Assembly (NCBI RefSeq): GCF_008727875.1
Contig: NZ_VTWS01000007.1
Coordinates: 248,001 to 312,000 of the forward strand
Source of the DNA: Larkinella humicola
GTDB lineage: Bacteria; Bacteroidota; Bacteroidia; Cytophagales; Spirosomataceae
Length of the DNA stretch: 64,000 nucleotides
Direction: 5' to 3'
Positions 36,921 through 64,000 of the stretch are shown here, in pieces. Numbering within the stretch: the stretch's first letter is position 1; each line of letters starts with the position of its first letter. A model generated the notes under the pieces. That model was not told the DNA's origin, searched no databases, and was given only the letters and a program-made list of their open reading frames with translations. Position numbers and translations under genes: made by a program.

Positions 36921-36941
36921 GAAACGAACGATTGATAGATC

Positions 36942-37916: not shown

Positions 37917-37928
37917 TCTTTCCTTTCC

Positions 37929-39338: not shown

Positions 39339-39352
39339 AAATGGGGCCTTTA

Positions 39353-39387: not shown

Positions 39388-39419
39388 CTACTTACTTTAA
39401 TCGATTGTGCAACAACACC

Positions 39420-40391: not shown

Positions 40392-40398
40392 AACTAGG

Positions 40399-40499: not shown

Positions 40500-40536
40500 G
40501 TAAATAATTATCAGACGTAGTCCTAGAAACTAAACC

Positions 40537-41166
40537 ATGAATAAACCCGGATTAAAGTATGGAGCCTTGCTTCTGCTGTTGGCGGTAGTGGTCTATCATT
40601 CCGTTTATTTCAAAAAACTGGACGAAGTGAAGGCCAAAGGAGCCCGGACGCAGTTCGATGCCGCAGCCTACGCCGATGCCTTCTGGAAAACCAAACTGCT
40701 GCCCGCAACCACCAAAGCAACCGACCTGAACACCTTGATTCAGGCCTTGAAAACCGATAAAGACCAGGCGTTTGCTGCACATTCCAACGCGATGAGTATC
40801 GGCAACATCCGGTATTTTCTGGTCAAAGGGCAGGGTAAAATAACCGCAGTTCGCGATCAGGAGGTCACGGTTTCGCTGACCAACGGACCTGACATCATCG
40901 TGGCCACGGAATACATTTTCGGAAATGCCGCCCGCGATGCGTCGGGGCTGATCAGCCTGACGGAGTTTACCAATACGATGGATTTAAACAACGTCTCAGC
41001 CGAAATCAACCAGATTATTCGGAAGCGGGTGGTGGCTCCGTTTAAAACCAGCGTAAAAACCGGGATGGAAGTGGAGTTTACCGGGGCCATCGAACTGAAC
41101 CGGGCCCATTTGCATACCGAAGCCATCGAAGTCATTCCCATTTCCATCCGGTCCGTGGGTACGTGA
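40537..41166 (+). CDS. DUF2291 family periplasmic lipoprotein-like protein
   Basis: 209 residues. One N-terminal membrane anchor or uncleaved signal (about 8-24) precedes a soluble domain. It contains GKITAVRDQEVTVSLTNGPDIIVATEYIFGNAARDAS, a DUF2291 signature. DUF2291 genes travel with ribose-type ABC importers and are believed to take part in sugar uptake, though the mechanism is unsettled. It ends 1 base before the ATPase gene, so translation is probably coupled. Confidence 0.87.
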   Translation: MNKPGLKYGALLLLLAVVVYHSVYFKKLDEVKAKGARTQFDAAAYADAFWKTKLLPATTKATDLNTLIQALKTDKDQAFAAHSNAMSIGNIRYFLVKGQGKITAVRDQEVTVSLTNGPDIIVATEYIFGNAARDASGLISLTEFTNTMDLNNVSAEINQIIRKRVVAPFKTSVKTGMEVEFTGAIELNRAHLHTEAIEVIPISIRSVGT

Positions 41167-41167
41167 T

Positions 41168-42670
41168 ATGCTAAGAGCGGAAAACATAACGAAGCGATTT
41201 TCGGGGGTAACCGCGCTGGACGCCGTTTGCCTGGAATTTCAGGCCGGAAAAGTGACGGCGGTGATTGGTGAAAACGGTGCCGGAAAGTCCACGCTGATGA
41301 AAATCCTGTCGGGTGTTTATCCCGACTACGAAGGCCAGATTTGGTACAAGGGGAACCCCGTTCGGTTTGCCTCTCCCCGCGACGCGCAGGACTGCGGCAT
41401 TGCCATCATCCACCAGGAACTGAACCTGATTCCGTACCTGACCATCACCGAAAACATCTTTCTGGGCCGCGAACTGACAACCCGCTGGGGAACCCTCGAC
41501 AAGAAGGCCATGCGACTGCGGACCGGGCAACTGCTCGACCGGCTGAATCTGTCCATCAGCCCTGACACGCTGGTTTCGGAGCTGAAAGTGGGACAGCAGC
41601 AGGTGGTCGAAATCGCCAAAGCGCTGCTGATCGACTCGGAAGTCATCATCATGGATGAACCCACCTCGGCCATCAGTGAAAGCGAGGTGGAAGTGCTGTT
41701 CAGAATCATCGCGGATTTAAAAAAGGCACAGAAAGCCATCGTTTACATCTCGCACAAACTGGACGAACTGTTCAAAATGGCCGACCGGTTTGTAGTACTG
41801 CGCGACGGCAAATCCATCGAATCCGGCGAAATGCAGGGCATGACCCACGATAACATCATTCGAAAAATGGTGGGGCGGGCAGTTCATACCATCCGTCGGC
41901 AAGCCGGTTTTTTGTCTCCCAAACCGCTGCTGTCGGTGGAGAATCTGTGTCTGAAGCACCCCGAACGAACGCAGGAAAACCAGCTCAGGAACATTTCCTT
42001 CACGGTGGGGCGGGGCGAAATCGTCGGTATTTTCGGGCTGATGGGCGCGGGACGAACCGAATTACTGGAAACGCTTTTTGGCCTGCATTCGAAGCGAACC
42101 AGCGGCAAAATTCGGCTGGATGAGCAGGAAAGGTATTTTAAGTCGCCCGGCGACGCCATCGCAGCAGGTTTGGCGCTGGTGCCGGAAGACCGCAAAAAAG
42201 ACGGACTGGTACTGGGGCTGGATGTACGGACGAACATCAGTTTGACCAACCTCAAAAGCATTGAACGGAACGGACTGCTCAGCCGGGCGAAAGAATCCAG
42301 TCTGGCAAACCGATACATCACCGACCTGACCATCAAAACATCCTCGGAGCGGCAAACCGCCCGGAACCTGAGCGGGGGCAACCAGCAGAAAATCGTTCTG
42401 TCGAAATGGCTGGCGACCCATCCCAAACTGTTGATGCTGGACGAGCCCACGCGTGGCATCGATGTCAACGCCAAAAATGAAATCTACAAGCTCATTCTGC
42501 AACTGGCCGACGAAGGCATGGGCATTCTGGTGGTTTCCTCGGAACTCCCGGAAATTCTGGCGATTTCCGACCGTATTTTGGTCATGAGCGAAGGAAATCT
42601 GACGACCGAACTCCCCGCCAATGCCTCGGAAGACGAGATCCTGAAAGCCGCTATTCCTCAAACCATTTAA
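41168..42670 (+). CDS. Sugar ABC importer ATPase (RbsA type, two nucleotide-binding domains)
   Basis: 500 residues with two ATPase domains. The first has an intact Walker A, GENGAGKST (about 34-42), a signature around LKVGQQQVVEIAKAL and a Walker B EVIIMDEPTSA. The second has the degenerate Walker A GLMGAGRTE typical of RbsA/XylG/MglA proteins, and a signature LSGGNQQKIVLSKWL with LLMLDEPTRGID. The single polypeptide powers import of a monosaccharide with the permease and binding protein of the operon. It starts 1 base after DUF2291. Confidence 0.95.
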   Translation: MLRAENITKRFSGVTALDAVCLEFQAGKVTAVIGENGAGKSTLMKILSGVYPDYEGQIWYKGNPVRFASPRDAQDCGIAIIHQELNLIPYLTITENIFLGRELTTRWGTLDKKAMRLRTGQLLDRLNLSISPDTLVSELKVGQQQVVEIAKALLIDSEVIIMDEPTSAISESEVEVLFRIIADLKKAQKAIVYISHKLDELFKMADRFVVLRDGKSIESGEMQGMTHDNIIRKMVGRAVHTIRRQAGFLSPKPLLSVENLCLKHPERTQENQLRNISFTVGRGEIVGIFGLMGAGRTELLETLFGLHSKRTSGKIRLDEQERYFKSPGDAIAAGLALVPEDRKKDGLVLGLDVRTNISLTNLKSIERNGLLSRAKESSLANRYITDLTIKTSSERQTARNLSGGNQQKIVLSKWLATHPKLLMLDEPTRGIDVNAKNEIYKLILQLADEGMGILVVSSELPEILAISDRILVMSEGNLTTELPANASEDEILKAAIPQTI

Positions 42671-42681
42671 CGAAGGCATCC

Positions 42682-43662
42682 ATGCAAATTTCCTTGCAAA
42701 CCTACCGACCCATTATCCTGAAATTTCAATCGCTGATTGCCCTGCTCCTGCTTTGCATCACGATCGGCGTTCTGTCTGACAAGTTTTTTACCGTGGCCAA
42801 CGGCTGGAACGTTCTGCGGCAAATCTCGGTCAACATCTGCATTTCCGTCGGCATGACGCTGGTGGTGCTGACGGCCGGCATCGACCTCTCCGTCGGTTCG
42901 GTGCTGGCGCTTTCGGGTGCCATTGCCGCCGGTTTGTTGCGAAATGGAATTGAACTCCCCGCCAATAATCTATACATCGGTTTTACGGTTTTCGGGGCCA
43001 TCGTTGCCGGAATTCTGACCGGTAGTTTGCTCGGCTGGTTCAACGGCTGGGCGATCACCCGGTTCAAACTGCCACCGTTTGTCGCCACCCTGGCCATGCT
43101 CACCATCGCCCGGGGTTTGACGATGCTCTGGACCGAAGGATTTCCCATCACCGGTTTGGGCGATTCGTTCACTTTCCTTGGAACCGGCTGGTTTTTAGGC
43201 ATTCCGCTCCCGGTATGGATTTCCGGTGGCATTGTTCTGGTCACGGTTTTACTCATGGATCAGACCCGGTTTGGCCGGTACGTCTACGCCATCGGCGGCA
43301 GCGAAAGCGCGGCCCGGCTGTCGGGCGTCAACATCAATCGCATCAAAATAGGGGTCTACACTCTGGCCGGTGCGCTGGCGGCAGTCGGTGGATTGCTGGT
43401 GACGTCCCGGCTGGATTCGGCGCAACCCAATGCCGGAACGAGCTACGAACTGGATTCCATCGCGGCCGTGGTCATTGGTGGCACCTCGCTGTCGGGCGGA
43501 CGGGGCAGCATCCTCGGCACGGTGCAGGGAGCGGTCATCATTGGCGTGTTGAACAACGGACTGGTGCTGCTGAACGTCTCGCCGTTCTGGCAGCAGGTTG
43601 TCAAGGGAATCGTCATTCTGCTGGCCGTTATCATCGACAAATCCAGCGCCAAAGGCGAGTAA
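42682..43662 (+). CDS. Sugar ABC importer permease (RbsC type)
   Basis: 326 residues with about eight to ten hydrophobic segments. Family markers are the early VLTAGIDLSVGSVLALSGAIAAG and the late VVIGGTSLSGGRGSILGTVQGAVIIGVLNNGLVL. The YAIGGSESAARLSGVNINRIKIGVY stretch is the cytoplasmic coupling loop that meets the ATPase. It probably works as a dimer. It starts 11 bases after the ATPase gene. The specificity of the system is set by the binding protein. Confidence 0.95.
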   Translation: MQISLQTYRPIILKFQSLIALLLLCITIGVLSDKFFTVANGWNVLRQISVNICISVGMTLVVLTAGIDLSVGSVLALSGAIAAGLLRNGIELPANNLYIGFTVFGAIVAGILTGSLLGWFNGWAITRFKLPPFVATLAMLTIARGLTMLWTEGFPITGLGDSFTFLGTGWFLGIPLPVWISGGIVLVTVLLMDQTRFGRYVYAIGGSESAARLSGVNINRIKIGVYTLAGALAAVGGLLVTSRLDSAQPNAGTSYELDSIAAVVIGGTSLSGGRGSILGTVQGAVIIGVLNNGLVLLNVSPFWQQVVKGIVILLAVIIDKSSAKGE

Positions 43663-43666
43663 GAAC

Positions 43667-45157
43667 ATGGAAAATAGCTTCATTCTGGCGATCGATCAGG
43701 GCACGAGCAGTACGAAAACGCTGCTGTTTAACGAACACGGAGAAGCCGTTGCGCGGGCATCGGAACCGCTCAGAACCCGGTATTACGGCGACGGTTACGT
43801 CGAGCAGGACCCTGAACAGCTATTCGCCAATGTGCTGGTTTCTGTCAAAAAATGCCTCGAAACTTTTGCAGCTCAGGGCGGTGATCTTCGGGCCATTCGG
43901 ACCTGTGGCATTTCAAACCAGCGCGAAACCTTCGTCGTCTGGGATCAGGCCGGTGTGCCGCTCTATAACGCCATCGTTTGGCAGTGCAAACGCTCGATCG
44001 AGGTGTGTGAGCGTCTCAAATCCGAAGGGCTGGAAGAGCAGGTAAAAACGAAAACCGGTCTGTTCATCGATCCTTATTTTTCGGGAACCAAACTGATCTG
44101 GCTCTACGAAAACAACGAAAAAGTGCGCCAGGCCGTCGATGCCGGAAATGCGTACTTTGGTACGGTCGATACGTGGCTGCTCTACCAGTTAACCGACGGC
44201 CAGGCCTATTTTACCGACTACACCAACGCATCTCGAACGCTGTTTTTTAACCTGAAAACGCTGGACTGGGACATGGAACTGCTGGCAGCTTTTGGTTTAT
44301 CCCAACTGAATCTCCCCCAGCCCAAACCGTCGGCTTTTTCGTTCGGCGCGTCGAATTTCAACGGTTTATTCGATCATCTTCTTCCAATTACTGCCCTCAT
44401 CGGCGACTCCCACGCGGCTGCGTTTGGCGAGGGGTGTTTTGAACCCGGCACCGCCAAGGCGACGTTGGGAACGGGCTGTTCCATCCTCATGAACATTGGC
44501 TCGGAGCTTCAGGAGTCAAAACGCGGAATGGTTTCCACGGTTTGCTGGAGCACTGAAGACCGCGTGGATTACGCCCTGGAAGGTGTGATCGTCACCTGCG
44601 GGGCCACCATCGAATGGCTAAAAAATAGCCTGAATCTCTTTGCTGAAAGCCGGGAAACCGAAGCGATGGCCACGGCCGTCAAAGACAACGGCGGGGTTTA
44701 CATCATCCCGGCGTTCAGCGGTTTGGGAGCGCCCCACTGGCAGATGGCCCGCAAGGCAACCATTTCCGGACTCACGTTCGGTTCCAGTAAAAACCACCTG
44801 GTGCGGGCGGCCCTGGAGTCGATTCCTTACCAGATCAAGGACGTCATTGTGGCGATGGAAGCGGATACCGGAATCCACCTGCAGGAATTGATGGTGAACG
44901 GTGGGATGACCGCTAACGGGTTTATCCTGCAATTTCTGGCGGATTTGCTCGGTAAAATGGTCGGCAACGGCGGCATGCCGGATGTTTCGGCGCTGGGTGC
45001 GGCTTACCTAGCCGGATTAAAAGCCGGTATTTATCCAGGTCTGACTCACCTCAAAAGTCTGAATACCGGAAAGAAGTCGATCTACCCGGAGGATTCCAAA
45101 ATGACCCGGATTCATTACGCTGGCTGGCTGGCGGCTCTGGGCGAAACCCGAAACTGA
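43667..45157 (+). CDS. FGGY-family carbohydrate kinase (glycerol kinase-like)
   Basis: 496 residues from ATG 43667, 4 bases after the permease stop; an in-frame ATG at 43598 lies inside the permease gene and is rejected. N-terminal phosphate motif AIDQGTSSTKTLLF (about 8-21), then GISNQRETFVVWD, and the second domain with GDSHAAAFGEG, ATLGTGCSILMN and the late GGMTANGFILQFLADLLG. It looks glycerol-kinase-like, but several FGGY members with that look phosphorylate ketoses. In this operon it should phosphorylate the ketose produced by the isomerase, such as apulose. Confidence 0.88.
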   Translation: MENSFILAIDQGTSSTKTLLFNEHGEAVARASEPLRTRYYGDGYVEQDPEQLFANVLVSVKKCLETFAAQGGDLRAIRTCGISNQRETFVVWDQAGVPLYNAIVWQCKRSIEVCERLKSEGLEEQVKTKTGLFIDPYFSGTKLIWLYENNEKVRQAVDAGNAYFGTVDTWLLYQLTDGQAYFTDYTNASRTLFFNLKTLDWDMELLAAFGLSQLNLPQPKPSAFSFGASNFNGLFDHLLPITALIGDSHAAAFGEGCFEPGTAKATLGTGCSILMNIGSELQESKRGMVSTVCWSTEDRVDYALEGVIVTCGATIEWLKNSLNLFAESRETEAMATAVKDNGGVYIIPAFSGLGAPHWQMARKATISGLTFGSSKNHLVRAALESIPYQIKDVIVAMEADTGIHLQELMVNGGMTANGFILQFLADLLGKMVGNGGMPDVSALGAAYLAGLKAGIYPGLTHLKSLNTGKKSIYPEDSKMTRIHYAGWLAALGETRN

Positions 45158-51764: not shown

Positions 51765-54700
51765 TTAGTCACCCAAAACCGGCAGCGTCATCTGAATCTC
51801 GGTGTACTCGCCTTCTTTCGAGCTGATTTCGATTTTCCCCCGGTGGAGTTGCACAATGTCTTTGGTCATGAACAGGCCGAGGCCGGTGCCTTTGGAGGTG
51901 GGTTTGGTGGTAAAAAACGGATTGAAAAGGTTGGCAATTTCCCGCTGCGGGATGCCTTTGCCGTTGTCCCGAATGCGTACAATAACGTGGTCATCAACCC
52001 GACTGGTAACAATCCGTACTTCGGGCATGAAGTCTTTGGTCAGCTTGCTCTTTTCAAACAGGGTATAATACGAATTGCTCACAATGTTCTGAACCACCTG
52101 CCCGAATTCGTTCGGTAGCAGGCTGGTTCGGACGGGCTTTTTGTCCAGATTCAGCACCAGATTGATGGCAAAATCCGGGTAATCGCCTTTCATTTCGTGT
52201 AACGCAACCCGGGCTTTGGTTTCGACAAACTGATTGAGATCGGTGTCCTGAAAATCCCGGGATTTTTCCCGCAGCAATACCTGCATGTCTTTCAGAATCC
52301 GGGTCGTACTGGCGCTGTGTTCCTGAATTTTAGCCAGATTCATCTTCAACACGTCCAGATCATCCATGATGTCGTCCCGCACATCGGCGCTGAGCACGTC
52401 CTGCTCCTTTTTAAGCCGGTCGGCAAATTCGTGGATGATTTCTTCCGACAACTGGGAGAAATTGCTAACGTAATTGAGCGGATTCAAAATCCGATCCACA
52501 ATGCCTTTGGTCAGTTGACCAACCGACGCCAGCCGCTCCTGACGGATCAGTTCGTGCTGCGTGTTTCGGAGGTCGTGCAGGGTATTTTCGAGATTCTCCA
52601 GCAGCCGGGTTTTGATGAAAGCGGCAATCAGGTGTTCCCGCAGATTCCCGATCATGCTGATGTCGCGCTGGTCGAACGCGCCCGACCGGGTGGTGTTTTC
52701 GAGCGTAATGAACCCTTCGATGTGGCCTTTGTTCTCGATCACAATGGTAATTAACGACTTGGGCGTATCCAGATCATCGATCGGATTGTTCAGCGGTTCG
52801 TAGTAAACGTCATTTTTCAGGTAAATGTCTTCGAATACTTCGACGGTTTGCGACAGGTAGCGGTTTTCGGCCTGTTCGCGCGTGAGCCCAACCGACGCCA
52901 CGTGCGACAACTCCAGATTACTCCGCAGCGCTTTGAAGAGGTATGAATTCGTCGGTTTGTCATACACCAGAAAGCTCGCGCTCGTCATGTTCCGGATCAC
53001 CGAAAACTTCGTTAGAATGGTCTGGAAGAGATTGGCGAAGTCGATTTCGGCATTGATCGACTGCACAATGAGGTCGATTTTTTCGAGCTGGTCGTTCTTG
53101 ATCGCCAGTTCTTCCGACTGCTTTTCCAGCTCCGATTTCTGGCTGACCACCTCTTCCGTCCGCTCCTGAATCAGCGTTTCCAGCGCCTGTTTTTCCCGCA
53201 TCAGCACCTTCAGTCGCCAACGCACCAGGAGGTAAATGAGCAAACCGGCAGCCAGAACAAATAGCGTGATCACCCACCAACGACCATACCAGGGCGGAAA
53301 GACCCGGAAGGAATAGGTCGCTTCTCGACTCGGGGTTTCATAAATATTCCGGGCGCGCACCCGAAACACGTAGTTGCCCGGCGGCAGGTTGGTGTATTCT
53401 TTCTTGCTTTCCGACGTCCAGTCCGACCAGGCTTTGTCGTAATTTTCGAGCCGGTATTGAAAAGTCAGTCCTTTTGCAATTGGAAAACTGGCCGCCGAAT
53501 ACTCAAAGCTCACGTCACTGAACTGGTTTTTCTCATCCAGCGTCTGGACTTTCCGAATCAGAGCCTGATACGGCAATTCGTATTTTCTGGCAATGGCGGC
53601 ATTGTACCGAATCACGCCATCGCGCCCGCCAAACCACACCAGCCCCTGCTGATCCAGGTAAATGACGTTGACCGGCGAGGTGGAAATCGGCAGAAATGGC
53701 GTCGTAAATTCAGTAAAACCGCTGCCCTGTTTTTGATACAGCGTCACGCGTTTTTTGTCGCCTTCCACCGTCCAGAGGTTCCCGCTCCGGTCTTCCATCA
53801 GGTTATTTTTCCAATACGCCGTCCCTGGTTTTTCCGTACCAAACGGATTGTAGGCGGCAAAGCGGTTTTGCTGCGGATTGTACCGATAAATGCCTTTTTC
53901 GTTGAAAACCAGCACGCCCTGCGTCGTAACCGCAACGCGGTTGTAAATCAAGGTGGGCAACCCCTGCTGACTTTCTACCACCTGAACCCCGTTGGTCGTA
54001 GCGGTCAACCGGTGTAAACCCGCCGTCAGCGTTTCGAGCCAAACCGTGCCGGATGGGTCTTCGTGGATGCCGACCACACGCTCGGAAAAATCGGAAATGG
54101 ACCGATAGGACGCCGGTCTTTCGCGGGAAACCGTGAGAATACCCGCACCGTTTTCCGTTCCGACGTACAGACGCGACGGGTCTTTTCGAGACACGGCAAG
54201 ACTAAGTGCGTACGATTGCGTCAAAGCCTGCGTTTGGCTACCGGTCAGTTGATAAACGCCTTTGCTGGTGGCGATTAAAAGCGAACCGGCGGCTTCGGCC
54301 AGCGAAAAACAGCTCATGTTCAGGCCCGGCACCGGGCGAACGGCCGCGTTGGTCAATTGAAAAAGACCATTCACCGCAGCCAGATAAACCGTGCCCCCCA
54401 TCCGACGGATGTCCATGATTTCGCCCGTCAGCCGCGACGATGTGCCGAACAGAGTCAGTTGCGAAGGTACCTCCATCTGCGCCAGACCGTTGTTGAGCGC
54501 CAGCCAGACGGTCCCTTCGCGGTCGGTAAACATCGCATTGACGAGCTGGTCGGTCAGCCCTTCGATGCCCCGAATGGTCTGTTTGAGCTGCCCATCGGGA
54601 TTCAGGATCAATATGCCACCCCGCAAGGTACTGATGGCCAGGCTACGATCATTCAACACCGCGCCACTGGTGGCCTGATGGGCCGAAAGAAAAGCGTTGA

Positions 54701-55436
54701 CCGGACTGCTGAAAACGTCGATGGTGTTGTTGGACAACTGAAAAAGGCCCTGGTTGCTGGTGATTAGCAGCGACTGATCCTTACTCAAAGGCAAGATATC
54801 AAGCAAGTCAAACAGCACCGGCACGTTTCCGTTCTGGCGGACCGGCGCGATCGAACCGTTCCGAAACACGCCTAATCCGCTTTGTTTCCGAAACAGATAG
54901 AGTGATTGATTGACCTCAAACGCCGACAGAACCGCCTGCTCCACGGCCCACTCGTTGACGGTTTTTCCGTTCCAGCGAAATACCCGGTTTTGGCAAATGA
55001 AGTAGATTCCATCCGGCATTTCGAGCACCGACAGCACCTCATCAAACCGGCTTTTGACCCGCTGACTCAGACTGACAAACCCGAGCGTTCCGGTGCTGTC
55101 GGCTTTCAGAACGCCAAATTCGCCATTGGCTCCTACGTAAATGGTGCCGTTTTTGGCCCGCAGCAACGCCGACACTTTCGTGATGTTGGTGGTCGGGATC
55201 GTCCGCCAGTTCAATCCGTCGTATTCGAGCACCCCGGCGAAATTGCCGACGTAAATGACGCCCCGCCGATCCTGCGTTACGGCAAAATTTTGCCCGTTCG
55301 CGTTGTATTGGTCGGGCAAATACAGTCGCGTCGGCGGCACGCCTTCATCCGCCCCGCCGGGCTGTCCTACCGCCATCCCGGCGTTTACCAGCATGAACAG
55401 GGCAATCCCACAAAGGCATGACACAAACCGACTCAT
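51765..55436 (-). CDS. Propeller sensor protein with GAF and His-less kinase core
   Basis: 1223 residues with a signal peptide (about 1-24). Residues about 30-640 carry Reg_prop-type propeller repeats in the periplasm, about 665-730 a Y_Y_Y domain, about 735-757 a membrane helix. In the cytoplasm follow a coiled coil (about 765-815), a GAF domain (about 820-950) and a dimerisation region starting RLASVGQLTKG at 968. Where kinases have a histidine, this chain reads GIVDRILNPLNYV with D981, so the phosphoacceptor is missing. The HATPase domain is intact (N-box NEFGQVVQNIVSNS near 1109-1121, G-box DNGKGIP, GTGLGL). It may bind ATP but not autophosphorylate in the normal way. Last gene of the operon. 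Confidence 0.88.
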   Translation of the reverse strand: MSRFVSCLCGIALFMLVNAGMAVGQPGGADEGVPPTRLYLPDQYNANGQNFAVTQDRRGVIYVGNFAGVLEYDGLNWRTIPTTNITKVSALLRAKNGTIYVGANGEFGVLKADSTGTLGFVSLSQRVKSRFDEVLSVLEMPDGIYFICQNRVFRWNGKTVNEWAVEQAVLSAFEVNQSLYLFRKQSGLGVFRNGSIAPVRQNGNVPVLFDLLDILPLSKDQSLLITSNQGLFQLSNNTIDVFSSPVNAFLSAHQATSGAVLNDRSLAISTLRGGILILNPDGQLKQTIRGIEGLTDQLVNAMFTDREGTVWLALNNGLAQMEVPSQLTLFGTSSRLTGEIMDIRRMGGTVYLAAVNGLFQLTNAAVRPVPGLNMSCFSLAEAAGSLLIATSKGVYQLTGSQTQALTQSYALSLAVSRKDPSRLYVGTENGAGILTVSRERPASYRSISDFSERVVGIHEDPSGTVWLETLTAGLHRLTATTNGVQVVESQQGLPTLIYNRVAVTTQGVLVFNEKGIYRYNPQQNRFAAYNPFGTEKPGTAYWKNNLMEDRSGNLWTVEGDKKRVTLYQKQGSGFTEFTTPFLPISTSPVNVIYLDQQGLVWFGGRDGVIRYNAAIARKYELPYQALIRKVQTLDEKNQFSDVSFEYSAASFPIAKGLTFQYRLENYDKAWSDWTSESKKEYTNLPPGNYVFRVRARNIYETPSREATYSFRVFPPWYGRWWVITLFVLAAGLLIYLLVRWRLKVLMREKQALETLIQERTEEVVSQKSELEKQSEELAIKNDQLEKIDLIVQSINAEIDFANLFQTILTKFSVIRNMTSASFLVYDKPTNSYLFKALRSNLELSHVASVGLTREQAENRYLSQTVEVFEDIYLKNDVYYEPLNNPIDDLDTPKSLITIVIENKGHIEGFITLENTTRSGAFDQRDISMIGNLREHLIAAFIKTRLLENLENTLHDLRNTQHELIRQERLASVGQLTKGIVDRILNPLNYVSNFSQLSEEIIHEFADRLKKEQDVLSADVRDDIMDDLDVLKMNLAKIQEHSASTTRILKDMQVLLREKSRDFQDTDLNQFVETKARVALHEMKGDYPDFAINLVLNLDKKPVRTSLLPNEFGQVVQNIVSNSYYTLFEKSKLTKDFMPEVRIVTSRVDDHVIVRIRDNGKGIPQREIANLFNPFFTTKPTSKGTGLGLFMTKDIVQLHRGKIEISSKEGEYTEIQMTLPVLGD

Positions 55437-55457
55437 TGTTTCCAGCTATTGACACCA

Positions 55458-58016
55458 TTAATGTACACTCACTTCCTCCACCGCAACGGCTTCGTTCCGG
55501 CTTATTAACAGCTCGGCTTGCGACCGAAAACCGGCTACCCGACTGGCAAGACGGCAGCGTTCTGAATCGGGCTGTAGCAGCAACATCCGGTGCAACTCCC
55601 CAAACCGGGTCGGATTCAGTTCTTTCAGGACAAAGAACGCAGTTTCGGCGATCCGCTCCTCCGGTGACGAGACGTTGGCCACCAAAATGGTCGTCGGATC
55701 AGTTTCGTGCCAGACCAACAGTTCGCGAAGGACGACGGCTTTGAGTTCCGGCGTAATCTTGTTGAAATCCTTGTTGATGATGTCGTGTAGCCGGGCTTCT
55801 ACCGACAACTGTTGCTGCGGGTGATTGACCGCGCTTCTCCGCAGTCGCTCGGCGAACGAGATGTCCGAAAAGAGCGGTAACACGCTGCCTTTCACCTCTT
55901 CGGGCAAAGCCGTACTGAGCAATTCGATCAGATAGCCTTTGATTTCGTCGTTTTTTTGTGTGATCAACTGGCTGATCAGATCGAAGCGGTTGTCGCCGTA
56001 GAGGGTGGCCAGCAGGTTGAAAACGGTAGGAACGATCCGGTTTTTTTCGTCCCGCAACGCATTGATGATCGGCGCATTCCGGGGATACGAGTCCAGATCT
56101 AGCCGGGCCGCTGTTAACCAGACCAGCAAGCCCACCTGCTCGTCGAGTTGCAGCAGCACGTGGGGCCGTTCCAGCACGGTGGCGCGGTGATTCAGGTGAT
56201 TCAGTCCTTCAAACACTTTGTCGCGCACGACCTGAACGGGGTGGTTGATCCGCGCCCGCAAAAACCGCAAAGCCGCGTCGCCCCCCATCTCGTTGATCAT
56301 CCCAACGATGTGAGCCTGCTGTTTTCCGGACAAATTGGCCTGATTGAAAAACCGGGCCAGCGACGGAATCACAGCGTCGCCAACCGATAAAATCGCGGAG
56401 GTCGCCGTGTCGCGGTAGGATTCATCGAGCAGGTGTTCGAAGAGACGTGGCCACAATTCCGGTTTCCGCAACGCCCCCGAAGCCAGCAAAGCCGCCTTCC
56501 GGACGGTCGGATTTTCGTCGTACAACAGTGTCTGTAAGTGGGTGTAGGCATAATACCGCCCCGAATAGCCCAACTCCGTAGCCGCCAGCGCCCGGTCGTC
56601 GGGGTTGTCCGATTCGGCCAGCCGTACCATGCTGGAGAACGCCTGAGCCGAACTGAGCGATCGTTCGGCTTTGGGACGAATCGTCGTGTGATCAATGGTA
56701 TTTTTATACGCCAGCGTCGCCGACCGAATTACGGCGGCATTCAGAGTCGCCCGGTATTCGGATTGAATCCGGAAAGAAACCACCGCCCAAAAAACCAGAA
56801 TGACCAGAAGCAGATAGCTCAAATGAACGAGCGTAATGGCGCTGAAACTGGTCAGAATCAGCAGTAAAATGCCCGGCAAAATACTTCCCAGGGCCTTGGG
56901 ACCACCCTCGATGCGGCTTTGGATCAGCGTCCGTTCGGCCGACGGTATGGGTTGAAACAGCACCTGGAAAGCCGGTTCGCTGATCGACCTCCGTACTGAA
57001 CTCAGAAAAAAGCGACTCAGGGCAATCAGCGCAAAAAACAGGGAGGTCGTTCCGTACACGGTGCCATAAACCGCCCCAACGGTGTAACTGACGAGCAAAG
57101 CAATGGGCAAGATCACAATACCGGCCCGAATGGAATACGCACTGATTAGCCGGTTATACAGGAATGACTTGATAATCAATTCAATCACGGCACAGATTCC
57201 AAAAAACATACCCAGAAAACCGGCGAGCAGTTCCTTGTTGGGGAAAATCTCTTTCGACAGAATCGTGAACATGAATTCGACGTAAATCAGGCCAAAAACC
57301 GTGAGCAACGCAATGATTGCCAGCATCGACTCATACGATTTGCTCGCCATCGCACCGGTTTCGACCGGCTGAGTTGCGGCAACGAGTGAAGGCGGGGCCG
57401 TTGTCAGCTTTGGCTGGAAGCGTTTGTAGATGTAGGTCATCAACAAGGCGCAGAGCACCAGCAACACCAGCGCCAGCACCAGCAAATCGTCGGTTGAAAC
57501 GAACGTCAGCAGAAGCGGTACCGATAAATAACTCAGGATCGACGCAATGACGTCACCCGTCGTAATGAAACTGAGCAGTCGTTTGCTTTGGCCAAAATTG
57601 AAAACGCGCCCGGCAGTGGCCCAGAACGTGATGCCGTGGATGAAAACGAAGACGCGGTTCCAGAGGTAGAGCACAAAATAGACCCACTTGTTATTCAGGC
57701 TGCTGGCGGCCAGCAGCAAACCAGCAACGGACAGGAGCATGAACGCCAGCAAATAGCCATTGACGCGCAGGAAAGACGCTTTTCGGCGGAGGTAGCGTAC
57801 GCCCAGGCCGAGGACATAGACCAGCGATCCACTGGCAATGAAGGCCATCGGCAATTGATTACGCTCGAAATTGACCAGAAAAAGGGAGGTGGTACTGGCG
57901 AAAAACAGGGCGACCGCTCCTCCCATCAGCAGGGAGTAAACGACGAACAGCAACACCGTTTTGCCTTCGCCCGACTGGAGGTTGAGAAATCTATAGACTG
58001 AGTCCCGCCGGAACAT
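55458..58016 (-). CDS. Npt1/TLC-like membrane carrier fused to HEAT repeats
   Basis: 852 residues. The N-terminal ~425 residues contain about eleven to twelve hydrophobic segments like the MFS/TLC nucleotide-carrier type (NPT1-like), for example VLLFVVYSLLMGGAVALFFA. The C-terminal ~400 residues are helical repeats of HEAT type, such as DNPDDRALAATELGYSGRYY and DENPTVRKAALLASGALR. Classic Npt1 proteins in Rickettsia and Chlamydia exchange ATP for ADP, but free-living relatives may have other substrates. It lies 21 bases upstream of the sensor gene and overlaps the GNAT gene by 26 bases. Confidence 0.82.
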   Translation of the reverse strand: MFRRDSVYRFLNLQSGEGKTVLLFVVYSLLMGGAVALFFASTTSLFLVNFERNQLPMAFIASGSLVYVLGLGVRYLRRKASFLRVNGYLLAFMLLSVAGLLLAASSLNNKWVYFVLYLWNRVFVFIHGITFWATAGRVFNFGQSKRLLSFITTGDVIASILSYLSVPLLLTFVSTDDLLVLALVLLVLCALLMTYIYKRFQPKLTTAPPSLVAATQPVETGAMASKSYESMLAIIALLTVFGLIYVEFMFTILSKEIFPNKELLAGFLGMFFGICAVIELIIKSFLYNRLISAYSIRAGIVILPIALLVSYTVGAVYGTVYGTTSLFFALIALSRFFLSSVRRSISEPAFQVLFQPIPSAERTLIQSRIEGGPKALGSILPGILLLILTSFSAITLVHLSYLLLVILVFWAVVSFRIQSEYRATLNAAVIRSATLAYKNTIDHTTIRPKAERSLSSAQAFSSMVRLAESDNPDDRALAATELGYSGRYYAYTHLQTLLYDENPTVRKAALLASGALRKPELWPRLFEHLLDESYRDTATSAILSVGDAVIPSLARFFNQANLSGKQQAHIVGMINEMGGDAALRFLRARINHPVQVVRDKVFEGLNHLNHRATVLERPHVLLQLDEQVGLLVWLTAARLDLDSYPRNAPIINALRDEKNRIVPTVFNLLATLYGDNRFDLISQLITQKNDEIKGYLIELLSTALPEEVKGSVLPLFSDISFAERLRRSAVNHPQQQLSVEARLHDIINKDFNKITPELKAVVLRELLVWHETDPTTILVANVSSPEERIAETAFFVLKELNPTRFGELHRMLLLQPDSERCRLASRVAGFRSQAELLISRNEAVAVEEVSVH

Positions 58017-58563
58017 CCGCGAATTGTTTTTTAAGATCGTACTGCATGAAAAACAGAGGCCAGTCGGGTCGTTCGGGGGCGTTCCGCAATTCGCAAACCG
58101 TCGAAAAACCCAGCTTCGTCAAGGCTCGGATCCGAAAGTTGAGCTGCGTTGAAGCCACAATCACATCGACCTTTTTCTTTTCGGCCATCCGGATGCGCGC
58201 CCGGTCCAGTTGTTCGGCAAACCCGTTTCCGCGAAACTGGGGGTCAATCACCATCCGACTGAACGACGCAATGGTCTGATTTTCAAACCGAAAGCGGCTT
58301 TCGTTTTTGGGCAGCAGAAACGAATACGGAGCGGTTTCGATGGTTTCGTGAATGTTCATCCGGGCAGCCGCCACAATGACGCCGTTCCGGGTAATGACCC
58401 AGTGGTAAGCCGTTTGGTCGAGAGGTTCGATCCAGGTTCGATTGGAAAAGAAAAGGGGATTGGCACCCGGTTCGTTGATCCAGGCCCGCACGCGAAGCAC
58501 ACCAATTTCGTCCATCCGATCCGGATACGTTACCTTTTCCAGACAGTACTTTTCAGCAATCAT
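57991..58563 (-). CDS. GNAT-fold acyltransferase, possibly N-acyl amino acid/autoinducer synthase-like
   Basis: 190 residues from ATG 58563, whose first base pairs overlap the stop of the receptor gene in an ATGA junction; an alternative ATG at 58572 adds three residues. The fold shows VLRVRAWINEPGANPLFF, a central strand AYHWVITRNGVIVAAARMNIHE, the acyl-CoA loop SRMVIDPQFRGNGFAEQLDRARI and a late strand with LTKLGFSTVCEL. The GNAT assignment is firm. The early RVRAW segment and the long first half recall LuxI/FeeM-type synthases, but this likeness is slight. Between a receptor and a carrier gene, it may make or modify a small signal. Confidence 0.82.
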   Translation of the reverse strand: MIAEKYCLEKVTYPDRMDEIGVLRVRAWINEPGANPLFFSNRTWIEPLDQTAYHWVITRNGVIVAAARMNIHETIETAPYSFLLPKNESRFRFENQTIASFSRMVIDPQFRGNGFAEQLDRARIRMAEKKKVDVIVASTQLNFRIRALTKLGFSTVCELRNAPERPDWPLFFMQYDLKKQFADVPAGLSL

Positions 58564-61223
58564 TGATTCCATGTCACAGGGCCCGACTCCTTGGGTTTAA
58601 GGGTGTAAAAAACCGCCAGCGACAGAATCCGGCGATCCATCAGGAAACGGGAAGCGTACGTAAAATTATCGGCTTCCCGGATTCCCGGAACAAAGTATTC
58701 CTTGTTGAGCAGGTTGTTCACCGACAGTTGCAGCGACAAGCCATTCAGCAAATTATGGTAGGTAAGGTTCGATTTGAGTACCAGAAACGGGTCGAAACGC
58801 CGGGATGGGTTGTTGCTGCCCGCCGTTCCCGCACCGGTTTTTCTCGCACTGACGTAGTTGCCCGCCAGGTAAAAACTCAGCCGGGGCGTCAACTGGTAAT
58901 CGGCACCGGCGTTGGTCATAAAATCGGCGATGTCGCTGATGCGGAGTTTGGCATCTTCGTCATACGGGTTGGTGTACGTAAAATTCCACCAGATGTTCAG
59001 TTTGGCAGACCGGTAGCTGCCTTCGCCCTGCAACCCCCAGATCCGGCGTCGGCCAATGCCCTGAAACTGCTGCGTCATGCTGCCATTTTCCTGCATGACC
59101 TGGGCCGTTCCGACGGCGTTGCTGTAGTTGGCAAAATAACCGACCACATTGAACGACATCTGCTTCGTGGCCTGGAGGTACGCGCTCATTTCCAGGTTGT
59201 TCACCCGTTCGGGCAGTAGCGTCGGGTTCGGCAACCGACGGGTAGCCGTGGTGCCGTATTTCTGCAAAAACGACGCATCCTTGAAGGCTTCGGCATAAAT
59301 GGCCTTGAAAATCACTTTGCCCCGGTTATAAATAGCCGCCAGCCGGGGCGTTGCCACGGTGCCGTAGCCCCCGTTGCTCCGAATCCGGTTGTTATCGACC
59401 CGTAAACCGCCCACCAGTTTCAGGTCTTTGAGTGGTCGGTAGGTGACCTGCGAATACACCCCGATGTCGTTGGCTTTGAAGTTGTTGCCCCCCGCCAGTC
59501 CGGACGCATTGGCCACCGAGCCGGTTTCGTCGGCAAACATCAGCGTCGAGGTGATGTAATTGCCCTGAATCAACCCGCTTCGCAATTCAATCCCCCCGCT
59601 GACGTCGAGGTTGTATAAAGGACTCCAGAACAACCGGAGTTCGTTCCGAAACTGGGTCGAAATGCGGTATTGATACGTGGCTGTCGCCTTCGGAATCGAG
59701 TCTTTTTCCAGTTCCAGAAAACCGAGTCGCCCATTGTAATAGCCGTTGTAAGTCACCAGGTTCGTTGTGCCCTTGATCTCGTGCAGGAGGTACGACGAGA
59801 TGTTCATGATCTGAAATTTATCACTGAACGCCTTGTTGTAGGTAATCGAAAACGCCCGGTCCTGCGTCACCCAACGCGGGTTTTTCTCCGTCGAAATCGT
59901 GGATTTATTGGTATACCAGGGCGTTCCGCTTTCGTCGGTTTTCCAATTTAGAAACGAAATGGTCAGGTCTTTGAACTCCAGTTTTCCCCGAAAAAACCAG
60001 TCGCGTTTGGTATTACTGAACCCTACTGCATTGCCGTTCAGGGTGTTGCCAAACAGATTGTTATCCAACCGGGCGGCTCGTTGAGCCCCTTCGGGTGTCA
60101 GGCGCAGGGCCGTAGCCTTGCCATCCGGGGCGTAATCCACTTTATATAGGTTACTGTTTGGATAGAGTTTGGTCAGGTTCGTTCGCTGGAGGTACTGCTG
60201 CGCCCGGTAATTACCGCTGGCGTCGGTGCCAAGCTGGTCAAATTGGCCGGTGTAATCCCCCGCTGTCCGGGCATCAAAATTCCATTCCGGGTAGTCCGAC
60301 AAATCGCGTTCGCCGGATTGGTAAACGCGGCCCGTGACCGACAGGGCGACGTCGGCGTTTTTGGCCGTCAGCACGCCATCGACCTGATTCCGGCCGAGCG
60401 CGCCCGACCGGGCGTGACCGTTGAACGCCACCTGTTTGGCCGGTCCCGGCAGATTCCGGAAATTTTTGGTGATGATGTTAATGACGCCCATGAATGCATT
60501 GGCCCCGTACAGCGTCGAAGCCGGGCCGTAGATGACCTCCACCCGTTCAATGTCCGACAAGGGATACTGCGGAGCGATCAAAACCGTGTTCGAAACCAGG
60601 TCATTCTCCTCCACCCCATCGATCAGAATCAGCGTCCGGTCGTTGGACGTGGAGCGATAGCCCCGCTGGTAGAAATTGGTCGAGCCGATGCCGTTGCCCC
60701 GAATGACGTCAAAACCGGGCAGATCGTGCAGAATATCCTCCAGTGACTTGTAGCCCCGCTGGGCAAAATCCTTGCTGTTCAATACCGCCACCGTGGCCGG
60801 TACATACAACAGATTTTCCGCTTTTTTGGAAACTGACGTTACCTGTAAAATCTGCTCTTTCGATTCCCGCACCTGCTGAAAAAGCGTTTTGTAGCGCGGA
60901 GACGCCGAAAAATCGGGTTCAAATTTCGGATTGAGCGTCAGAAGCTGGCTGATCGACCGCGCACTTTGCGGCAGGGAATCAATCGCCAGGTAAGTCATCG
61001 ACAGAATCTTGTAGGCCTGCACACGGGCATATTCGCTGAACCCCTTCTCGACGCAGGGATTCAGGAGCGCAAACACCTCATCGAAGTTACCGGTCGCATA
61101 CCGTTTTTCAGCTTCCGGGATCACAGCCGATTCGTCGCAGTTGGCCTGCGCAAAGGTCGGCAGCCGAGCCCATCCCAGCAGCAAAAAACTCAGTATCAAA
61201 CCAATCGGGTAAAATTTAGTCAT
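58560..61223 (-). CDS. TonB-dependent receptor with helical N-terminal extension
   Basis: 887 residues with a signal peptide (about 1-25). Residues about 27-115 are helical with TPR-like pattern (EAEKRYATGNFDEVFALLNPC, later LSMTYLAIDSLPQSARSISQLL) and precede the plug (about 135-260) with VPATVAVLNSKDFAQRG and VEVIYGPASTLYGANAFMGVINIIT. The rest is a 22-strand-type barrel ending with a terminal aromatic region (SLAVFYTLK). No carboxypeptidase-like CarD domain, unlike SusC-type receptors. The receptor begins 6 bases after the STAND gene. Its TPR-like extension in the periplasm could bind a partner. Confidence 0.9.
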   Translation of the reverse strand: MTKFYPIGLILSFLLLGWARLPTFAQANCDESAVIPEAEKRYATGNFDEVFALLNPCVEKGFSEYARVQAYKILSMTYLAIDSLPQSARSISQLLTLNPKFEPDFSASPRYKTLFQQVRESKEQILQVTSVSKKAENLLYVPATVAVLNSKDFAQRGYKSLEDILHDLPGFDVIRGNGIGSTNFYQRGYRSTSNDRTLILIDGVEENDLVSNTVLIAPQYPLSDIERVEVIYGPASTLYGANAFMGVINIITKNFRNLPGPAKQVAFNGHARSGALGRNQVDGVLTAKNADVALSVTGRVYQSGERDLSDYPEWNFDARTAGDYTGQFDQLGTDASGNYRAQQYLQRTNLTKLYPNSNLYKVDYAPDGKATALRLTPEGAQRAARLDNNLFGNTLNGNAVGFSNTKRDWFFRGKLEFKDLTISFLNWKTDESGTPWYTNKSTISTEKNPRWVTQDRAFSITYNKAFSDKFQIMNISSYLLHEIKGTTNLVTYNGYYNGRLGFLELEKDSIPKATATYQYRISTQFRNELRLFWSPLYNLDVSGGIELRSGLIQGNYITSTLMFADETGSVANASGLAGGNNFKANDIGVYSQVTYRPLKDLKLVGGLRVDNNRIRSNGGYGTVATPRLAAIYNRGKVIFKAIYAEAFKDASFLQKYGTTATRRLPNPTLLPERVNNLEMSAYLQATKQMSFNVVGYFANYSNAVGTAQVMQENGSMTQQFQGIGRRRIWGLQGEGSYRSAKLNIWWNFTYTNPYDEDAKLRISDIADFMTNAGADYQLTPRLSFYLAGNYVSARKTGAGTAGSNNPSRRFDPFLVLKSNLTYHNLLNGLSLQLSVNNLLNKEYFVPGIREADNFTYASRFLMDRRILSLAVFYTLKPKESGPVTWNQ

Positions 61224-61229
61224 GTACGG

Positions 61230-64000
61230 TTAATCAGGCTTCGTTTTTTCGTAGGGAATATCCTTCCCGATGTACTTCTCCCACTCTTCTGTGCTCAGGT
61301 TGCGCTTTACTTTCCGGGCCAGTTCGGCATACAAATCCGCCGGATCGATGTTACGGATGCGCACCGTCCGGTCGGCCCCGCAGGCAATCAACCGTTTGCC
61401 GTCATTGCTGAACCGAATAGCCATCACCCACGAGTCGAAATCGTTGATGACGATGGGTTGCTGCTGTTTGATCAAATTGTTGTAATCCCAAATGTGTATC
61501 GACCAGTCGGCGCTGCTGCTGGCCACCAGTTTGCCGTTGGGCGAGAAAACAATGTCGCTGACCGTAGACGAATGCCGCCCCGACAGGAGGTTTCCCACCG
61601 CTTCGGGGGCATTTCCGGTTAGTTTCCAGGCATAGAGCAGGCCGGTCGAGGTGCCGGTCAAAAGCTGCGTTCCGTCCGGGCTAAAGGCCAAGGCCGTCAC
61701 CCGGTTGCCAAACTGCCGACGGGCAATCACTTCCGGTTTTTTCGTCAGATCCGCTGCGTCGAAACTCAGAATCTGCCCGTTGTTCGAACCACACACCAGC
61801 CGTTTGCCGTCGCGGGTGAGCCGGGCGCAGTAGATCGCAAAACCGGAACGGTTGTTCTGCAACGAATCGAGCCGGTTGGCCGCCGGTTTCCAGCTCCGAA
61901 CCTGCCCGTCGCCACTGACCGAGATCAGCCGGGATAAGCCATCGGCCGGCAACAACGCCAGCACCGGAACTGCATGAGCTTTGATTGCCGATGGCATGGC
62001 CTCCGGTTTTTCGATATTCCAGCCGTACAGCCAGCCGTTCTCACTGCCGCCAAACACGGTTTTCCCATCCGGACTAACGGCCACGGCCCGGACGCCATTG
62101 GCGTTCCGGCGGGGTGTTTTCAGAGACACAGGTACACGATTCGCATCGCCGGTTGCCCACAGTTTCACCGTACCGTCGTCGCTCCCCGTTGCCATGAGTG
62201 ATCCGTTAGTACCGGGTTGCATTGCCACCGTTCGTACCACATCGGCATGAGGGCGCAGCACGGTATTGGCGTCCGACGATTTGGATAAGGCATTGAAAAT
62301 GTCCGGATTATCGGGCAAACCGCCGTTCTTCACATTCAGGCGATAGGCTTCCAGCGCCAGCAAAGCCGGCAGATCATCCTGCGTGTTTTCGTTGAGTTGA
62401 TACGACTGAATCGCCACTGTCCGGGCCACGGCCTTTCCGCGTTGCTGTTCGGCAAATTGCTGGGCCGTCTGCGCCACGGATCGCTGCGATTCGGCTTCTT
62501 TCTGCGAGCCTTCCGCCCGGCTTTTTTGCTGTTCCGCTTCTTTCCGGGCTTCCTCCGCCTGCTGGCGTTGCCGCTGCGCATCATTTCGGGCTTCTTCGGC
62601 GCGTTGGGTCTGGGCCACGGCCAATTGGCGGGCGGTTTCGGCCTCCTGCCGTTTCAGTTCAACGGTTTGCTGTCCACGGACGGCAATCACCCGCTGTTCT
62701 TCGGTCAATCGCTTCTGCTGCTCGGCCATGATTTCCTGCTGTTCGGCGATTTTCTTCTGCGTGATGGCTTCACGGGTCTGGGCTTCGGCGCGGTTTCGCT
62801 CAAAAAGGGCAATCTTTTTCTCGGCAATCGCCGTTTCTTCGCTCTGGAGGGCTTCGGTGCGCAAAACCGCCGAAACAATCAGAAAAAAAAGCGAGATCAA
62901 CGCACCCACGCCCAGAAAAGCCGCAAAAAACCGCGCCCGTTTCAGCTCCCGTTTCTGCCGTTCTTCCTTGTTGCGGATTTCAAATTCGTATTGGTTCCGA
63001 CTGTATTCCAGAAAGTTAACCGCCCGTTCAAGATACGGATCGTAGCGGTTGGCCCAGGCGGGTGTCGGGCGGTTTTCGACCAGCCACTTCAGGCCAATCT
63101 GCAATTCGGGGTTGACCCACAACCCGGTTTTTCCTTCGTGATACAGCGTCGCCGACTGGCTCACCTGCTTGTAAAATTTAGCCGAATCGGTTTCCTCCTT
63201 AACCCAGGTTTGCAGCCGTTCCCACAAAATCATCAACCGCTCATGGCTAATGTCGATGATCAGATCGGGGTCGGCGTGCAGGGCAATCGACGGCGTTAAA
63301 AAGGCGACATCCCGCTCCCGAAACCGGTTCAGAACATCGATCAACAGGTATGGATTGACCCCCGAAATCTCGCTGATGGTCCTCACGGGAATGGGCCGGA
63401 TTACGCTCGTGTTGCCCGCTCCCAGCACGATCAGGGCTTTGAACAGCTTTTCGGTGGCCAACTGGCTTTTTTCATCGGGCAAATTCCCGTACACCTCCTC
63501 GGCGTGTACCGTAATGGCCTTCTGCATTGTGCCAATGGCTTCGTAGTCAGACAGATCGATGGGATTATCGGTATTGCGGTTGAGCTGCCAGTAGTTCCAC
63601 GTTCGCATGAGCGCGTGTTGCAGGATCGGCAATTGATCGGCCCGGTTTCCAAGGTCGGTGAGCAGCCGGGCGGTAAGTTCTTCGGAAATACCGGCCCCCA
63701 TCACCTGAATCGGCGTCACGATGGCCTTCCGGATTTCGTCCCTGTTCATCTTGGGCAACAGATACGAGCCGTGGTTGATGGCTTCCGTCAGCCCTTCATA
63801 ATCCGTGCAGTCATCGAGGTAATCGGAGCGCATCGTCAATACAACATACACCGAGTCATTCTGCCGGCGGCTCAACGCCAGAATCAGGTTGATGAACCCC
63901 GCCACTTCTTCGTGGCCGTCGTCGGTCGATTGGTAGCGAAACACGTCCTCAAACTGATCGATCACGAGCAGCAGGTTTGCGTTTTCACACCAGTCCAGCA
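61230..64000 (-). CDS. STAND-type ATPase with WD40 repeats, 3' part (5' end outside window)
   Basis: The frame stays open to the right edge, and reads into a Walker B-like NLLLVIDQFEDVF around 63935-63983; the P-loop and any N-terminal effector domain lie outside. The visible part contains the rest of the NTPase (about the first 260 residues, with MRSDYLDD and a winged-helix-like LINDISHERL equivalent, read IIDISHERLM), a membrane helix (FFAAFLGVGALISLFFLIVSA), a long coiled coil rich in E, Q and K, and seven WD40 units at the end, such as LMATGSDDGTVKLWATG and LVASSSADWSIHIWDYN. STAND proteins sense a ligand and oligomerise. It heads the operon and probably acts as its sensor. Confidence 0.87.
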   Translation of the reverse strand, partial: LDWCENANLLLVIDQFEDVFRYQSTDDGHEEVAGFINLILALSRRQNDSVYVVLTMRSDYLDDCTDYEGLTEAINHGSYLLPKMNRDEIRKAIVTPIQVMGAGISEELTARLLTDLGNRADQLPILQHALMRTWNYWQLNRNTDNPIDLSDYEAIGTMQKAITVHAEEVYGNLPDEKSQLATEKLFKALIVLGAGNTSVIRPIPVRTISEISGVNPYLLIDVLNRFRERDVAFLTPSIALHADPDLIIDISHERLMILWERLQTWVKEETDSAKFYKQVSQSATLYHEGKTGLWVNPELQIGLKWLVENRPTPAWANRYDPYLERAVNFLEYSRNQYEFEIRNKEERQKRELKRARFFAAFLGVGALISLFFLIVSAVLRTEALQSEETAIAEKKIALFERNRAEAQTREAITQKKIAEQQEIMAEQQKRLTEEQRVIAVRGQQTVELKRQEAETARQLAVAQTQRAEEARNDAQRQRQQAEEARKEAEQQKSRAEGSQKEAESQRSVAQTAQQFAEQQRGKAVARTVAIQSYQLNENTQDDLPALLALEAYRLNVKNGGLPDNPDIFNALSKSSDANTVLRPHADVVRTVAMQPGTNGSLMATGSDDGTVKLWATGDANRVPVSLKTPRRNANGVRAVAVSPDGKTVFGGSENGWLYGWNIEKPEAMPSAIKAHAVPVLALLPADGLSRLISVSGDGQVRSWKPAANRLDSLQNNRSGFAIYCARLTRDGKRLVCGSNNGQILSFDAADLTKKPEVIARRQFGNRVTALAFSPDGTQLLTGTSTGLLYAWKLTGNAPEAVGNLLSGRHSSTVSDIVFSPNGKLVASSSADWSIHIWDYNNLIKQQQPIVINDFDSWVMAIRFSNDGKRLIACGADRTVRIRNIDPADLYAELARKVKRNLSTEEWEKYIGKDIPYEKTKPD

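Follow-up and report, generated by a model that had tools for sequence, protein, structure and literature searches.

The stretch of DNA analysed here, called the window, comprises 64,000 nucleotides of the Larkinella humicola genome (7.86 Mb), bases 248001-312000 of contig C18 (NZ_VTWS01000007.1). At its right end, five minus-strand genes stand in a tight row and code for a STAND ATPase, a TonB-dependent receptor, a GNAT enzyme, a carrier-like protein with HEAT repeats and a sensor resembling a histidine kinase. These five genes are one strongly conserved unit, and the unit may belong to a signalling system that spans the cell envelope. In the order of transcription they are as follows.

61230 to >64000, minus strand: STAND ATPase (nSTAND1 domain, one predicted transmembrane helix, coiled coil, WD40 propeller), 1055 amino acids when complete
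58560-61223, minus strand: TonB-dependent outer-membrane receptor with an N-terminal periplasmic, TPR-like extension (about amino acids 29-123), 887 amino acids
57991-58572, minus strand: GNAT acyl/acetyltransferase, 193 amino acids, alternative start at 58563
55458-58016, minus strand: NTT-HEAT protein, with a membrane domain of nucleotide-transporter fold (amino acids 1-430) followed by HEAT repeats, 852 amino acids
51765-55436, minus strand: propeller/Y_Y_Y sensor with periplasmic part, transmembrane segment and histidine-kinase-like C-terminus, the His of its H-box replaced by Asp (GIVDRILNP), 1223 amino acids

All five genes were found where an initial annotation, made from the letters of the window, had placed them, and its gaps (6 and 21 bases) and overlaps (4 and 26 bases) agreed with our measurements. 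The shorter gap separates the STAND and TonB genes and the longer one the carrier and sensor genes, while the GNAT and carrier genes share 26 bases. The TonB and GNAT genes overlap by 13 bases from the first ATG of the GNAT gene (58572) and by 4 bases (ATGA) from the second (58563), so that the value of 4 holds for the second ATG. Pfam searches of the five proteins returned STAND, WD40, TonB plug and barrel, GNAT, HEAT, propeller, Y_Y_Y and HATPase matches, which backed the labels STAND, WD40, TonB receptor, GNAT, HEAT and propeller given earlier. The start codon of the STAND gene lies 397 bases outside the window on the same contig (L003 1231-4398). Upstream, a divergent gene follows after a gap of 511 bases, and downstream a convergent gene ends 26 bases away; with these two borders, the operon in this genome consists of five genes only. 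A promoter pattern was matched loosely ahead of the STAND gene, with one closer match in the related locus L015, and the same loose pattern also occurred three times within the operon.

The conservation of the unit was examined in related genomes. In an early search of 148 genomes of the order, the GNAT gene was found in 5, Larkinella humicola included, and in the other four (4/4) it was adjoined by the TonB and HEAT-carrier genes. In larger pieces of DNA and in four contigs of named Larkinella, the five genes stood complete and in the same order at 8/8 loci; the closest named relatives of the GNAT protein came from Larkinella punicea and Larkinella sp. C7 (97-98% identity). A profile search of the whole family detected GNAT in 42 of 222 genomes and 10 of 36 genera, and 20 of these 42 genomes, with a Runella rosea plasmid added, supplied the sample of GNAT loci. 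The loci were scored on open reading frames (ORFs) of at least 60 amino acids with family hidden Markov models (HMMs) built from five of the 28 loci, and L122 and L130, which duplicate L016 and L119, were not counted. The order STAND-TonB-GNAT-carrier-sensor on one strand was kept in 27 of the 28 distinct GNAT loci, which upheld the earlier view of the five genes as one unit. The one exception was G624, where a weak GNAT (L138, 71 bits) had none of the other four genes. The ratio of nonsynonymous to synonymous substitution (dN/dS) of the five genes was 0.04-0.11 against L. punicea, where a flanking gene gave 0.12. It was 0.08-0.12 against L. terrae and L. rosea, at dS values of 0.8-1.3 that are near saturation, and 0.03-0.09 between L. 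terrae and L. rosea. With dN/dS at 0.03-0.12, the five genes of the Larkinella clade are under purifying selection and in use.

Most relatives carried a longer operon. The order STAS1-GlgX-STAS2-RsbW-STAND-TonB-GNAT-carrier-sensor-histidine kinase-receiver-SpoIIE was present in 21 of the 27 ordered loci, with the domains of the extra genes called on L012 by Pfam and NCBIfam. A further locus (L131), cut off by the start of its contig, is visible from RsbW onwards, and the remaining five, all from Larkinella and including Larkinella humicola, have the core five genes with the six others absent. The relatives with the 21 full operons thus hold a partner-switching set of SpoIIE phosphatase, RsbW kinase and STAS antagonist, and the serine motif SSAGLRV was seen in both STAS proteins of the 4 loci inspected. 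One putative Larkinella locus (L121) has the full eleven-gene set, so the simplest reading would be that the six genes were lost within the genus. Among 12 hand-chosen genomes, and with positive controls included, an RsbW relative was found in 3/3 with the full operon and in 0/9 others, Larkinella humicola among them. A receiver-SpoIIE query against the Larkinella humicola genome returned receiver matches only and no receiver-SpoIIE relative. The closest relatives of the lost kinase and regulator in this genome are a kinase, a receiver and a receiver-cyclase gene on contig C14 (L023 7148-9406), and a functional link between these genes and the operon is speculation. On the 88 kb plasmid of Runella rosea (L119, NZ_CP030852.1), the whole eleven-gene operon is followed by genes for a receiver-LytTR protein and a TPR-HisKA_2 kinase.

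We turn to the single parts, beginning with the STAND protein. Pfam assigned it an nSTAND1 domain (PF20703, 195 bits) and WD40 repeats, a coiled coil was recognised by eye, and the Walker A motif G-x-SGSGKSS and a DQFE motif were invariant among eight aligned STAND sequences. The 5' end missing from the window had been expected to reveal an effector domain; the completed protein of 1055 amino acids starts directly with nSTAND1 and has no N-terminal effector. Transmembrane prediction on 38 STAND proteins gave a strong hydrophobic segment in 36, exactly one such segment in 35, and no segment above threshold in two. Because lysine and arginine were more frequent on the N side of this segment in each of the 36 proteins, the ATPase is predicted to lie in the cytoplasm and the WD40 propeller in the periplasm, as in a single-pass protein of the inner membrane.

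The receptor encoded next to it has a plug (PF07715) and a barrel (PF00593). An HMM was built from the first ~95 residues of five mature TonB-type receptors and run on 765 ORFs, and its matches (E up to 0.01) all fell in loci with a STAND gene; that in L057 adjoins a WD40-like ORF interrupted by the contig end. The proteins with this N-terminal domain in distant loci mostly measured 314-379 amino acids, and two of them tested by Pfam had a small outer-membrane barrel (OMP_b-brl_2) and no TonB receptor. Alignment showed that the N-terminal domain is common to the TonB-type and small-barrel proteins, with the barrel swapped behind it.

Across 395 genomes of the class, 27 places with a full-length STAND gene were counted, the match running from profile position 13 or earlier to 1024 or later and the DNA extending past the gene end. 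A barrel gene with the N-terminal domain stood next to STAND at 21 of these 27 places and elsewhere in the locus at 3. Outside this count were G337 at a contig end, the cut matches of G265, G461 and G248, and further matches of which some are perhaps full-length (the second copy in G507, and G417). Full-length STAND relatives outside the class had a TonB gene with the N-terminal domain next to them in 3/3 cases, and 2/3 of these loci continued with a GNAT-like or unassigned protein, an NTT-HEAT carrier and a sensor. Five partial matches outside the class (G771, G891, G812, G756, G871) had a TIR-like ORF upstream, as judged by eye, and no barrel gene was seen beside them, three being without downstream DNA. 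An Aureibacter plasmid carried the STAND and TonB pair by itself. These results indicated that the pair of STAND and barrel genes is the deeper core of the system, the two being adjacent within the class and also outside it, in further classes of the phylum. Since the barrel type varies while the N-terminal domain stays, signalling is likelier than uptake as the shared role of the pair. The outputs encoded at distant STAND loci were receiver-cyclases, GAF-cyclases, kinases or TIR-like proteins.

Two further kinds of protein were observed near STAND genes. Putative lipoproteins of about 400-470 amino acids, sometimes in rows, stand beside STAND/barrel genes in L109, L111, L112, L113, L064 and L067, and the 2 tested had no Pfam match. 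Directly upstream of distant STAND genes, a protein of about 420-495 amino acids is encoded in L059, L063, L064, L067, L069 and L117, with a weak TIR_2/DUF4062 match by Pfam in L064 and none in L059.

In the sensor, Pfam recognised Reg_prop, Y_Y_Y and HATPase_c (PF02518, 76.6 bits), and the H-box reads GQLTKGIVDRILNP in place of ..HE..NP. The initial annotation had noticed that the phosphoacceptor His is missing, and this was borne out by an Asp at its position in the sensors of 27/27 ordered loci and in 120/120 listed homologues (the best 120 of 1530). A small kinase gene follows the Asp sensor in 22 of the 27 loci, and 21 of these 22 kinases have a His of their own (LHEI.NP or close), the one in L124 not being matched by the pattern. 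Outside the family, the G444 sensor keeps a normal His (AHEINNP), and there a receiver-cyclase gene comes next and the small kinase is absent. In another class, the propeller sensor of L156 (13669-17412) ends in SpoIIE, not in a kinase, and an RsbW-like gene (17418-17846) lies directly after it. Because the His state of the sensor changes in step with the neighbouring output genes, the sequences fit a model in which the His-less sensor and the small kinase divide the work, the cases outside the family being few. The reverse-strand locus of G444 (L056) reads STAND-TonB-position-3 protein-NTT/HEAT-sensor (with His, in two ORFs)-receiver/cyclase-acetyltransferase binding cyclic nucleotides (cNMP), which points to a cyclic-nucleotide output. 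P0114 and P0171, sensors of TPR type and not of propeller architecture, have Asp in the phosphoacceptor position as well, and the group of His-less kinases thus appears wider than the operon.

The third and fourth genes encode the GNAT enzyme (PF00583) and the NTT-HEAT protein. The position-3 proteins of G444, G887, G951 and G755 compared with the GNAT at a profile probability of 5.8%, with a GNAT-like motif aligned. For the carrier fold, Pfam gave no support; structure and profile searches found the NTT fold, and two solved NTTs (E 1.5e-18 and 1.8e-18) were the sole matches up to E 10. From these searches, the protein is taken as an NTT-HEAT protein of NTT-like fold with putative transport activity, and the earlier label of an Npt1/TLC(NTT)-like carrier held. 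The numbers of what we take to be the NTT catalytic residues were compared by eye with the carrier alignment; the numbering fitted in part, and no claim is drawn from it. The other label beyond Pfam, a "TPR-like" receptor extension, stays tentative, with a TPR_14 match in one of three proteins (E 0.084 in L009) and none from Pfam in Larkinella humicola or L064. P0078, a protein of 2084 amino acids, fuses the NTT-HEAT carrier with the sensor.

Taken together, we give an even chance to the reading that these genes form the core of an operon for signalling across the Bacteroidota cell envelope, leading from an outer-membrane receptor to an ATPase switch in the cytoplasm. Adjacency and topology were computed; contact, direction and output we infer. 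A ligand, or the state of the outer membrane, would be sensed at the barrel, whose N-terminal domain would hand the signal to the WD40 propeller, and this signal would switch the cytoplasmic nSTAND ATPase or make it oligomerise. The NTT-HEAT protein could be a nucleotide-responsive membrane partner or transporter that uses its HEAT repeats to report to the complex or to be gated by it. The His-less sensor may provide a second periplasmic input, without self-phosphorylation and acting via a partner, and the GNAT would modify a protein or small molecule in the pathway. In the eleven-gene form, the adjoining His-containing kinase would partner the sensor, SpoIIE would then dephosphorylate STAS, and STAS would capture RsbW. 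Partner switching would be the ancestral output within the family, and in the Larkinella clade without this arm the core may act directly or via unlinked kinases, the nearest being the histidine kinase and receiver-cyclase on C14.

Several findings weigh against this reading. The partner-switching genes are absent from the Larkinella humicola locus and RsbW was not found in its genome, and in the five-gene clade no kinase gene adjoins that of the Asp sensor. The His-less state is not universal, as the His of the G444 sensor shows. No barrel gene was present in the examined DNA at 3 of the 27 full-length STAND places, and G315 and G254, where the match reaches profile positions 954 and 982 of 1034, also had none, which brings the count of adjacent pairs to 21/29. 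The periplasmic WD40 is predicted from hydropathy and charge only, TPR is a weak label for the receptor extension, and the position-3 protein in distant loci is weakly GNAT-like. No STAND gene was found in the examined DNA of 11 of 20 NTT-HEAT regions, and many STAND loci have no NTT-HEAT; because each occurs in loci without the other, the two seem also to work apart. The P0078 fusion is a single database protein that may be an artefact, and is a hint at most.

Other explanations of the same genes were weighed against signalling. The initial annotation had proposed one pathway in which a small molecule is taken up, modified and sensed, and a version of it would have the TonB receptor import the molecule, the GNAT modify it and the NTT carrier pass the molecule or its product through the inner membrane, while STAND and the sensor report. 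A TonB plug and barrel, an NTT transporter fold and a GNAT fold within one unit agree with this, and the single unit itself stands (27/28). However, distant relatives swap the import barrel for a small one and keep the N-terminal extension, the STAND/barrel pair is found without carrier and GNAT, and the eleven-gene form brings five signalling proteins and GlgX, not more uptake genes. With a barrel type that is not constant, and with a histidine kinase, receiver-SpoIIE, RsbW and two STAS added at most loci as a signalling output, the part "taken up, modified and sensed" was not supported, and we consider import unlikely. That the operon of the Larkinella clade is what is left of a decaying eleven-gene system is far less probable still: five Larkinella loci lack the six genes and neither RsbW nor a receiver-SpoIIE relative was found in the Larkinella humicola genome, yet the five remaining genes are intact, and their dN/dS (0.04-0.11 against L. 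punicea, with 0.12 in the flanking gene) speaks against decay, which was set aside.

A conflict or phage-defence system, in which STAND would sense damage or phage at the surface and trigger a cell response, was judged improbable. STAND proteins are discussed as immune switches in the excerpts of PMC7159879 and PMC10907252, and a TIR-like/DUF4062 protein is encoded directly upstream at some distant STAND loci. Against defence, our STAND protein has no N-terminal effector, the operon is stable and includes kinase, phosphatase and GlgX genes, and the 27 loci show no extra defence-type gene between the operon genes; the PADLOC matches were weak and two only (HEAT and mad3, 19-21 bits), and the idea was not adopted. 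Cell-to-cell signalling also seems hardly probable; in this reading the GNAT would act like FeeM and make an N-acyl amino acid, a lipid that the barrel and the propeller sensor would then detect. The GNAT scored 27.2 for the FeeM family against a cut-off of 27, and 24.7 in L009. With its AlphaFold model (pLDDT 87), FeeM came first in the structure search, tied with NatC and within the range of protein acetyltransferases, and FeeM did not appear in the list of sequence matches. With FeeM and NatC tied in the fold search, the FeeM identity was not adopted.

The signalling reading was also compared with known systems. FecA-FecR-FecI is a TonB-dependent cell-surface signalling system in which the N-terminal periplasmic domain of the receptor is an STN domain and which works with an anti-sigma factor and an extracytoplasmic function (ECF) sigma factor. 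The two have in common that the gene of an outer-membrane receptor, whose N-terminal domain is periplasmic, adjoins the gene of a single-pass protein of the inner membrane with a periplasmic domain (predicted in our case). In our locus, another N-terminal domain takes the place of STN, STAND-WD40 that of the anti-sigma factor, and the barrel may be small. No STN match was found with the whole receptor (E up to 0.001) or the extension (E up to 10), and neither a FecR-type anti-sigma factor nor an ECF sigma factor is among the five operon genes or the eleven. On the opposite strand, some 12 kb upstream of the operon (L003 16793-18001), sigma-like and anti-sigma-like ORFs were noticed by eye. RsbU/RsbW/RsbV is a partner-switching system, and the operons of 21 relatives resemble it in bringing together genes for two STAS proteins, a receiver-SpoIIE protein and an RsbW-like one. 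They differ in the STAND/outer-membrane receptor input and in GlgX between the STAS genes, and the arm is absent in Larkinella humicola. DivL is a pseudo-histidine kinase. ChrS is described as a pseudokinase in the excerpt of PMC9491836, and like either protein our sensor is kinase-like, has no phosphoacceptor His and is expected to need a partner kinase. Unlike them, it has the His-to-Asp change across a large group with Reg_prop/Y_Y_Y input, and a small kinase gene next to it in 22/27 loci.

Major et al. (2017; PMC5381601) sampled Bacteroidetes NTTs and described NTT-HEAT fusions from Cyanobacteria to Chlamydiae and oomycetes, whose functions were called unknown in the excerpt of that paper. 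Our carrier has the same arrangement of an NTT membrane domain followed by HEAT repeats; it differs in belonging to a fixed signalling operon, and no STAND, TonB or sensor neighbours appear in that excerpt. With the STAND immune and conflict proteins of PMC7159879 and PMC10907252, again as excerpted, our protein shares a STAND-type ATPase and a superstructure-forming C-terminal sensor; unlike them, it has no effector domain, its sensor half is predicted to be periplasmic, and its usual partner is an outer-membrane barrel. The whole lacks traits that define FecA-type signalling (STN, and anti-sigma and ECF factors in the operon), histidine kinases (the His) and, in Larkinella humicola, partner switching. 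All the parts come from known families. No description of the system was found in the open-access literature, the scope of our search (subscription papers and preprints lay outside), which accords with the earlier statement that the set has no named system.

Two other groups of genes lie nearby. An apparent sugar-use cluster, called by eye, occupies 34668-45157 of the window (isomerase-like gene, split transketolase, sugar-binding protein, ABC ATPase and permease, sugar kinase). Upstream of the operon (L003 5829-15146), three related secreted proteins of 739-781 amino acids and two further secreted-enzyme-like genes are encoded.

In a wider and more tentative form of the signalling reading, which we hold possible and somewhat doubtful, the STAND-transmembrane-WD40 protein and the barrel with its N-terminal domain would be a widespread unnamed switch of Bacteroidota: an apoptosome-like ATPase with a periplasmic WD40 propeller that reads the state of the barrel. 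Its outputs (partner switching, cyclases, kinases) would be interchangeable, and NTT-HEAT proteins would be nucleotide-sensing parts, not mere energy importers. If true, Bacteroidota would have a route from an outer-membrane receptor to the cytoplasm built without any of the known STN/anti-sigma parts, and an apoptosome-like WD40 sensor would be placed in the periplasm. The operon would also offer a genetic context for NTT-HEAT proteins, and it makes testable why a large kinase-like group has Asp in place of His, the next gene being mostly a small kinase with a His of its own.
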